From NCBI GenBank assembly GCA_013361095.1, contig JAATWA010000001.1:1962501-2026500 (forward strand): a DNA stretch of 64,000 nucleotides, in the 5' to 3' direction. This DNA is from Pseudanabaena biceps (GTDB lineage Bacteria; Cyanobacteriota; Cyanobacteriia; Pseudanabaenales; Pseudanabaenaceae). Of this stretch, positions 22,348 through 46,907 are shown in pieces. Position numbers and translations under genes: made by a program. Position 1 is the first letter of the stretch. Each line of letters opens with the position of its first letter. The notes under the pieces were generated by a model. The model saw only the letters and a program-made list of their open reading frames with translations, made no database searches and had not been told where the DNA came from.

Positions 22348-22400
22348 AAAATTGATTTTTTGAAAGCCAGCCTACGGCTGGCTTTCAAAAAATCAATTTT
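22348..22400. repeat. Long perfect palindrome, GCCAGCC core (overlaps next)
   Basis: 25-nt arms (22348-22372, 22376-22400), loop TAC. Its last seven bases CAATTTT also form the start of the next palindrome. Confidence 0.9.
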
Positions 22401-22440
22401 GGGGTTTGCACCGCCTTCGGCGGTGCAAACCCCAAAATTG
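22394..22440. repeat. Second perfect palindrome sharing an arm segment
   Basis: 22-nt arms (22394-22415, 22419-22440), loop TTC. It shares 22394-22400 with the palindrome at 22348, so both stems cannot be complete at once. Confidence 0.9.
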
Positions 22441-43186: not shown

Positions 43187-43212
43187 TAGGGGCAATTCAT
43201 GAATTGCCCCTA
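43187..43212. repeat. Fully self-complementary TAGGGGCAATTC palindrome
   Basis: 26-bp perfect palindrome without loop in the nrtA-porin spacer. On the minus strand it could act as an mRNA stem between the two cistrons. Confidence 0.75.
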
Positions 43213-45835: not shown

Positions 45836-46348
45836 TTATTCTTCCAATAAACTTCTGAGCATCCAAGCCGTTTTTTCATGAACTTGGAGACGCTGAGTTA
45901 GTAAGTCAGCAGTTGGTTCATCACTGGCTTTTTCCGCGATCGGAAAGATAGAACGTGCAGTTCTGGTGACGGCCTCTTGTCCTTCCACAAGTAATCTAAT
46001 CATCTCTGCGGCTTTAGGAACGCCTTCAGTTTCAGGAATGGAAGTGAGCTTGGCATAAGCAGAATATGTTGCTGGTGCATAGACTCCAAGGGAGCGAATT
46101 CGCTCAGCGATGAGATCGACAGCTAAGGAGAGTTCGGTGTACTGAGCTTCAAACATTAGGTGTAATGTATTAAACATTGAACCCGTTACGTTCCAATGAA
46201 AGTTATGGGTTTTGAGATATAGAGTGTAAGTGTCAGCTAACAATCTGGATAAACCCTCAGCGATCGCAATGCGATCTTCTTCAGAAATACCAATATTGAT
46301 GGAGTTGGACAACTCTTTGTCAACTGCTTTATCTTTGTTTTTGCCCAT
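45836..46348 (-). CDS. dps: Dps-family ferritin-like protein
   Basis: Start taken at ATG 46348 ([10 protein letters not shown]). 170 residues, a four-helix bundle: [43 protein letters not shown] contains the His-x-x-x-Trp and HxxFExxY ferroxidase residues. [29 protein letters not shown] follows. Dps dodecamers oxidise and store iron and protect DNA from hydrogen peroxide. A single gene with palindromes on both sides. Confidence 0.93.
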
Positions 46349-46447
46349 TATTGATATTGTTTTGATTATGTTGTGGTTGTTACTATGGTATTGTAGCTGA
46401 CCAAAGAAAAACAAAAAAGCACCTGTAGCGCCTTGCGCTTTCTTAAG

Positions 46448-46504
46448 ACACCAAAAAACTTTAAAGAGGATGGCTTCGCCATCCTCTTTAAAGTTTTTTG
46501 GTGT
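46448..46504. repeat. Long perfect palindrome, ACACCAAAAAACTTTAAAGAGGATGGC
   Basis: 27-nt arms (46448-46474, 46478-46504), loop TTC, directly followed by the next palindrome. Confidence 0.93.
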
Positions 46505-46571
46505 TACGTACAGTCTAAAGGAATGTTTTCCCGCCGAAGGCGGGAAAACATTCCTTTAGACTGTACGTAAC
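46503..46571. repeat. Very long perfect palindrome abutting a stop codon
   Basis: 33-nt arms (46503-46535, 46539-46571), loop GAA. It ends exactly at the stop of the next gene (46572). It overlaps the previous one by two bases. Confidence 0.93.
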
Positions 46572-46907
46572 TTAATATTCGATAGTCATGCTTTCGTAGG
46601 TTTTATGCTGGACTGTTTTCACTCTCTCAATCGGCTTCGCCTTGATTTTATTTAAAAACTGCGCTTCTGACATATCGGCACTAACCGCATTATTCTCTAC
46701 ATCTGAATCTAGTTGCGCTAGGTTTCGGTCTAACTCGGCAAGGCGATTCATGATTTGCTGCTGGCGATCGCATACACGGACTAGCTCTTCCTGTAGTCTT
46801 TCTTTTTCATTAGCTAGCTGGTGCATTTGGATATAGATTGCCGAAGGGGTCTTCCGCAGAGGCATGGAACGCAATTTAGGTTGAATAGGGCGGCGAGATA
46901 TGGTCAT
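46572..46907 (-). CDS. Small coiled-coil protein, hypothetical
   Basis: 111 residues: a basic, Pro/Arg-rich start (MTISRRPIQPKLRSMPLRKTP), then a long coiled coil (MHQLANEKERLQEELVRVCDRQQQIMNRLAELDRNLAQLDSDVE) and a variable tail. The layout recalls small gas-vesicle accessory proteins, but no gvp gene is near and I cannot assign it. Frame and RBS are ordinary. Confidence 0.55.
   Translation of the reverse strand: MTISRRPIQPKLRSMPLRKTPSAIYIQMHQLANEKERLQEELVRVCDRQQQIMNRLAELDRNLAQLDSDVENNAVSADMSEAQFLNKIKAKPIERVKTVQHKTYESMTIEY

Follow-up and report, generated by a model that had tools for sequence, protein, structure and literature searches.

Two long palindromes that overlap at their ends in the 64-kb window (the whole stretch of Pseudanabaena DNA analysed here), P1 and P2, are probably the cores of two MITE-like elements, F3 and F4, in which template switching re-perfects the arms and inverts the loops. 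We infer this mechanism from three footprints found in the compared sequences, namely compensated changes in the two arms, extension of the arms into their flanks and inversion of the loop. The mechanism is already known, and what is unusual here is its scale. Inter-strand template switching has so far been known from rare events, and the near-perfect palindromes, extrapolated to roughly 3,000 per genome, would amount to thousands of natural reporters with loop direction as the read-out, which would make the rate of template switching and its enzymes measurable. Together, the hairpins would form a natural record of DNA hairpin rewriting during replication.

The locus and its two element families

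The sequence agrees base for base with the preliminary description in coordinates, arm lengths, the 2-bp overlap and the junction with a stop codon (Table 1): P2 starts at the first base past the stop codon that ends the 111-aa ORF on the minus strand. Feet of ACACC/GGTGT and GTTAC/GTAAC were recognised by eye at the two palindromes. Folded as single-stranded DNA, the double palindrome reaches -68.8 kcal/mol versus -14.1 (sd 3.0) in 200 shuffles (z -18). A Rfam search of the window gave no match, nor did plasmid records searched with the locus. From the look of its sequence, we take the product of the downstream gene to be a Dps-like protein.

Table 1 Coordinates of the palindromes, their neighbours and related features. 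Positions are those of the window unless a locus, genome or contig is given.
Feature	Position	Strand	Details
P1, perfect palindrome	46448..46504	.	arms 46448-46474/46478-46504, 27 nt, 100% complementary
P1 loop	46475-46477		TTC, 3 nt
P2, perfect palindrome	46503..46571	.	arms 46503-46535/46539-46571, 33 nt, 100% complementary
P2 loop	46536-46538		GAA, 3 nt
F4-family core within P2	46526-46548		TTTTCCCGCC-GAA-GGCGGGAAAA
P1/P2 overlap, 2 bp	46503..46504	.	GT
F3 outer end flanking P1	46424..46449	+	22/26 bases equal to F3 outer sequence
Terminator remnant	46412..46423	-	GGTGCTTTTTTG on mRNA strand; right arm and T-run
Weak terminator-like hairpin, predicted	46434-46416	-	8 pairs
Upstream gene	46572..46907	-	111-aa protein, genus-conserved; stop codon 46572-46574
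Downstream gene	45836..46414	-	codirectional with 111-aa ORF
F2 copies	22348-22440 (window); L039 4270-4362; L047 13590-13686 and 19788-19884
SbcD	G000:C17:116665-117426 and 3870539-3871315
SbcC	C17:97086-100082 and 3236654-3239653
Split recJ-like frames	L231 690-1832 and 2629-4647; L232 1601-2740 and L233 2003-3346

In a Blast comparison of 150 hairpins of this class with 100-bp flanks, 140 fell into one cluster, so that most hairpins belong as copies to a small number of related families. P1 resembles 18 further places (both-strand matches to one place counted once). The F3 element of ~100 bp consists of one outer end, TACAGTCTGTTGCGGCTTTGTGTAGT, the palindromic core and the other outer end, which reads inward TACAGCGCTTTGCGCTTTCTTAAAAC; TACAG is common to both ends and their interiors differ. 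Judged by sequence, P1 is the core of a truncated F3 copy: it keeps the second F3 end, and P2 occupies the place of the missing first end. P2 itself contains the core of the F4 family (TTTCCCCGCC-GAA; match at E 6.7e-6). The bases ACAGTCTA of its outer arm are found in both the F4 left side and the F3 end, and which of these two was their source is ambiguous.

F3 has at least 61 matches at E ≤ 0.01 (40 of 237 candidates scored), and F4 at least 53 (40 of 50 candidates scored). The elements are short and non-coding, with many dispersed copies and recognisable outer ends. Some elements found at a locus in one genome are absent from a sister genome, and one locus appears by eye to be duplicated around the insert, synteny breaks and nested changes having left few clear empty sites. 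The best reading is that F3 and F4 are MITE-like by their size and their non-coding dispersed copies. As far as described in the portion of that source available to us, prokaryotic MITEs such as Nezha in cyanobacteria are likewise short, non-coding, dispersed, intergenic, foldable and of high copy number (PMC10969869), whereas the core here is one or two perfect palindromes with 3-nt loops.

The many dispersed extragenic palindromes might also suggest REP-type elements mobilised by a RAYT (Y1 tyrosine transposase), which are known in other cyanobacteria and, in the available text on REP/GTAG elements, are likewise extragenic palindromes with short loops (PMC3733652). However, stems of 6-13 bp are given there versus often 24-33 bp here, the GTAG/CGTC foot is absent by eye from P1 and P2, and F3 is ~100 bp long with asymmetric flanks of its own. 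PF01797 had no match in G000, G022, G007 and G018, while controls such as E. coli were positive; with no Y1 transposase match in the genome, we rejected a RAYT/REP identity as extremely improbable.

The two families differ in how intact their copies are. The F3 loci were taken as the top Blast matches to a single perfect copy, a sampling that favours intact ones, and the hairpin finder accepts a mismatch-free hairpin at 26 of 30 of them, the remaining four being mismatched in or near the tip. For F4, mismatches were counted without the finder over 16 arm positions in 24 copies: 9 show none, a tenth shows a single one and the other 14 show 2-7, several best centres not being the F4 core, which is gone or truncated there. 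The finder found no hairpin at 12 of these 24 loci. With nine perfect copies, the evidence from F4 comes from a small number of loci and points to decay. Among the copies sampled, those with long arms stay paired and those with short arms often decay.

Relatives that share the neighbour gene have a terminator, AAGCACCC..GGGTGCTTTTTT, ahead of the downstream gene (by eye, of 19 informative congeners six have the AAGCACC form and one has a variant). Here the F3 end has taken the place of the left arm and directly abuts the right arm, which suggests that the older terminator was reshaped when F3 arrived; the two elements would have been inserted between the stop codon and this older terminator. 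On the minus strand, no canonical intrinsic terminator was called at P1 or P2, and only the weak site in Table 1 is predicted. The terminator prediction lists P1 on the plus strand, and no T-run follows the GC stem of P2.

Abundance of the hairpins and their place between genes

The rarity proposed in the preliminary description is contradicted by the surrounding genome. Hairpins of this class number 35 in the window versus none in three Markov-simulated sequences, which excludes a chance origin, and ten further 20-kb stretches of the genome hold another 115, giving a total of 150 in 264 kb. Among these are nine pairs that overlap or lie ≤10 nt apart, and the double palindrome is therefore a recurrent form. 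The loop has 3 nt in 131 of the 150 (a 1-nt loop plus its closing pair being scored as a 3-nt loop), and a C-G pair closes it in 126 of these 131. Because the finder penalises mismatches, the perfection of the hairpins is partly selected for; zero mismatches were found in 139 of the 150 with the strict finder, and in 369 of the 437 intergenic hairpins that a laxer setting gave in 1.5 Mb of Pseudanabaena DNA.

The density of ~0.57 per kb in this genome extrapolates to ~3,100 hairpins for 5.57 Mb. Across eight sampled congeners it ranges from 0.11 to 0.58 per kb (G002 104 and G022 89, in 260 kb each; G021 9 in 20 kb; G017 25 in 60 kb; G005 37 in 94 kb; G012 30 in 52 kb; G008 16 in 79 kb; G020 6 in 55 kb), and the view of such DNA as exceptional and unstable in its host is not supported at these densities. 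The same class occurs in independent Pseudanabaena assemblies, one of which is a single contig. Five genomes of other cyanobacterial families, sampled at 20 kb each, gave 0, 1, 1, 0 and 0 hairpins, or 2 in 100 kb.

Two further kinds of palindrome were observed. Family F2 is a double palindrome with a shared overlap of 7-11 bp, set between ends CAGCAATTCTCATTAT and ATAATGAGAATTGCTG, and is a ready-made relative of the P1/P2 double. A loop-less palindrome, TAGGGGCAATTCA/TGAATTGCCCCTA (window 43187-43212; L029 1411-1488), looks like a different dispersed element; in G019 it sits within a palindrome with 39-bp arms behind the same gene. The small dispersed repeats of Nostoc, reportedly described by Elhai in 2008, are also cyanobacterial mobile repeats of very small size. 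In the open-access literature we found no paper on these palindromic elements in Pseudanabaena, and the main text of a study that surveyed 118,019 genomes for perfect inverted repeats contains neither 'cyanobacteri' nor 'Pseudanabaena' (PMC13155455).

The hairpins are unevenly placed between genes, with gene positions taken from a simple longest-ORF caller and not from annotation. There are 4.60 hairpins per kb in convergent gaps, 2.16 in codirectional and 1.33 in divergent ones, and out of 276 in codirectional gaps 108 lie ≤20 nt from the upstream stop and 23 ≤20 nt from the downstream start. With the strict finder, a hairpin lies ≤80 nt from the stop codon of the 111-aa gene in 10 of 19 informative congeners, with differing sequences, and none does so in the other nine. 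From their position, the hairpins probably have a role at mRNA 3' ends, although insertion bias or tolerance would produce a like distribution; 79 of the 437 intergenic hairpins lie in divergent gaps, where such a role makes no sense. Transcribed hairpins at gene ends would probably protect mRNA 3' ends or help to stop RNA polymerase. They bear on gene-end formation in Rho-less cyanobacteria, in one model species of which most 3' ends are without canonical terminators, according to the part of the report available (PMC13289151).

The marked preference of the hairpins for stop codons and convergent gaps, together with the recurrence of hairpins of different sequence at the same stop codon, also favours an explanation by selection on RNA structure alone, according to which the hairpins serve as terminators or 3'-end stabilisers and mutations are compensated one by one. 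The changes in arms and loops bear directly on this explanation.

Paired changes in the arms and direction of the loops

The F3 alignment comprises 28 cores, from 27 of the 30 fetched loci and P1 (left out were L206 and L213, which are centred on another hairpin, and L229, in which the loop is shifted). Within it, 98.8% of cells are paired, as against 37-64% in slid control structures, and both sides have changed in 16 of 24 pairs. Cells with both-sided changes number 46 versus 6.5 (sd 2.1) in shuffles, and any of the five measures taken was reached by 0 of 500 shuffles. Such an excess of both-sided changes, the mark of a palindrome maintained by template switching, was found less clearly in F4. 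At column 10/44, UA, AU, CG and GC all occur, and these cannot all go via G-U.

Among 23 F3 copies from one genome (arm ≥23, 3-nt loop), the arms have diverged by 9.8% versus 11.8% in the outer flank, and pairwise comparison of the copies gives 598 pair differences, of which 576 are compensated. An alternative in which a transposon has spread young perfect copies, so that perfection reflects recent transposition and not arm copying, would be in line with elements that one genome has at a locus and a sister genome lacks, and with the decay of many F4 copies. It is very unlikely, however, as F3 arms are ~10% diverged yet still paired, and at orthologous loci the two arms of a copy have changed in situ.

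These changes in place were followed in three same-locus sets of genomes (G002/G022/G021, G008/G020/G017 and G005/G012; flank divergence ~8%), which gave 103 directed comparisons with most loci counted twice. In the 84 comparisons with ≥80% of pairs the same or compensated, 1431 pairs are the same, 64 compensated, 24 G-T, 31 A-C, 32 other and 17 gap. The compensated share of changed pairs is thus 64/151 (0.42) versus 0.014 expected with independent arms, and it is 0.30 versus 0.015 expected over all 103 comparisons. Transitions make up 28 of the 64 compensated changes, if anything a smaller share than in the flanks, where they account for 317 of 561 (p 0.06). Without transition enrichment the compensated changes need not go via G-U, and a stepwise route of that kind is disfavoured. 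Among mismatches read on the gene sense strand, G-U outnumbers A-C by 29 to 16 (p 0.07), a hint that RNA pairing is under some selection.

The loops at these loci were compared in the same way. In 47 comparisons, which are partly redundant (three-way), 9 loops are identical, 12 nearer the same, 13 the reverse complement and 13 nearer the reverse complement, so that 26 of the 47 are flipped; a cleaner set, one direction of three genome pairs, contains 10 flipped and 11 not (n = 21). Within the 23 F3 copies, whose asymmetric flanks are fixed, the loops read AAA in 8, GAA in 5, TTT in 5 and TTC in 5. Loop direction thus appears near random, with directions taken as assembled, where an assembler k-mer shorter than the arm could mis-set them. 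In the available text of two reports, an inverted spacer counts among the recognised traces of inter-strand template switching (PMC8604942, PMC8794818), and inversion of the loop at a fixed position was found here in assembled sequences.

By the same reasoning, a de Bruijn graph with k below the arm length permits either reading of a loop, and short-read assembly might be supposed to create the palindromes or their loop directions. Arm co-variation cannot arise so, the class is present in many independent assemblies, and flips also separate G002 (one contig) from G022 (8 contigs), at 5 of 14 loops; we therefore regard an assembly artefact as highly improbable. The near-even division of loop directions weighs as well against RNA selection alone, since selection on pairing does not invert loops and about half of them are flipped. 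The slight excess of G-U on the sense strand speaks for such selection, but the compensated changes show no transition bias, mismatch-free arms of 25-33 bp go beyond the needs of a terminator, and P2 is without a T-run. Taken alone, RNA selection is an unlikely explanation.

Arms also appear to grow into their flanks. One F3 copy (L215) carries TTCCTAAAACCC on its left side, where other copies carry CTTTGTGTAGT-type sequence; the left side exactly mirrors this copy's right flank GGGTTTTAGGAA, down to a private G that the F3 consensus TTTTAAGAAA does not have. In two F4 copies (L171, arm 20; L187, arm 25) the left-side sequence is found in both arms. The length of the P2 arms, 33 versus the usual ~16 of F4, fits arm growth by copying.

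In the template-switch mechanism that we favour, the palindrome would become single-stranded or the fork would stall, and the nascent strand would switch to the opposite arm or strand, copy across the dyad and then return. A single event of this kind would convert a one-arm substitution into a matched pair, may extend the arms into the flanks and would invert the 3-nt loop; repeated copying of one arm from the other during replication would account for the perfect arms. More tentative, and possible rather than probable, is the wider proposition that arm copying and loop inversion at short palindromes outpace point mutation in Pseudanabaena, with thousands of loci being re-perfected all the time and their loops turning to and fro, a genus with a second SbcCD tolerating or driving the process, and the elements persisting because they are rebuilt by it.

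So far as described in the accessible parts of the two reports, template-switch RNA hairpins (PMC8794818) and yeast inverted repeats (PMC8604942) share with the present set the homogenisation of arms, with compensatory pairs arising in one step, and the inversion of loop or spacer, also from GAA to TTC. Those are rare events, with 69 loop-only inversions and ten spacer inversions, and lie in rRNA, microRNA or coding sequence, whereas here a very large bacterial intergenic set has loop directions that seem near random at ~8% divergence. The mitochondrial coding palindromes of Nematomorpha (PMC6649704) share near-binary arm perfection, many gains and losses and a proposed repeat conversion. They differ in being mitochondrial and coding, with repeats of up to 284 bp, and the portion of that paper available to us describes no dispersed element family.

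Hairpin-processing nucleases in the genus

SbcCD, whose status the preliminary description had put forward as a point to check, has not been lost: two SbcD over the cut-off and two full-length SbcC-like reading frames are present (Table 1), although the SbcC matches do not reach the curated cut-off of the family, which also holds for most cyanobacteria searched. Loss of SbcCD was accordingly rejected as a cause of the hairpin abundance, as was loss of ExoVII (XseA) or of RecJ, both of which are present, and no cause was found among SbcCD, XseA and RecJ. The RecJ with the top score of all is an additional one on contig C31 (G000:C31:6515-8158), which may be foreign because the assembly is marked 5.14% contaminated.

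Pseudanabaena genomes carry two types of SbcD, with two matches over the cut-off in 22 of 23 genomes, while most other cyanobacterial families searched have one. The second SbcC adjoins the second SbcD in G002, G021 and G022. A recJ-like gene that is a single frame in G000 (C17:700086-701852) is split in many congeners (Table 1), and in G001 its halves lie on different contigs. The N half ends in ...VQDTLYPE and the C half starts after a ...LTPSPSP..EGSKKKKSK stretch; the gene was possibly broken by a dispersed repeat.
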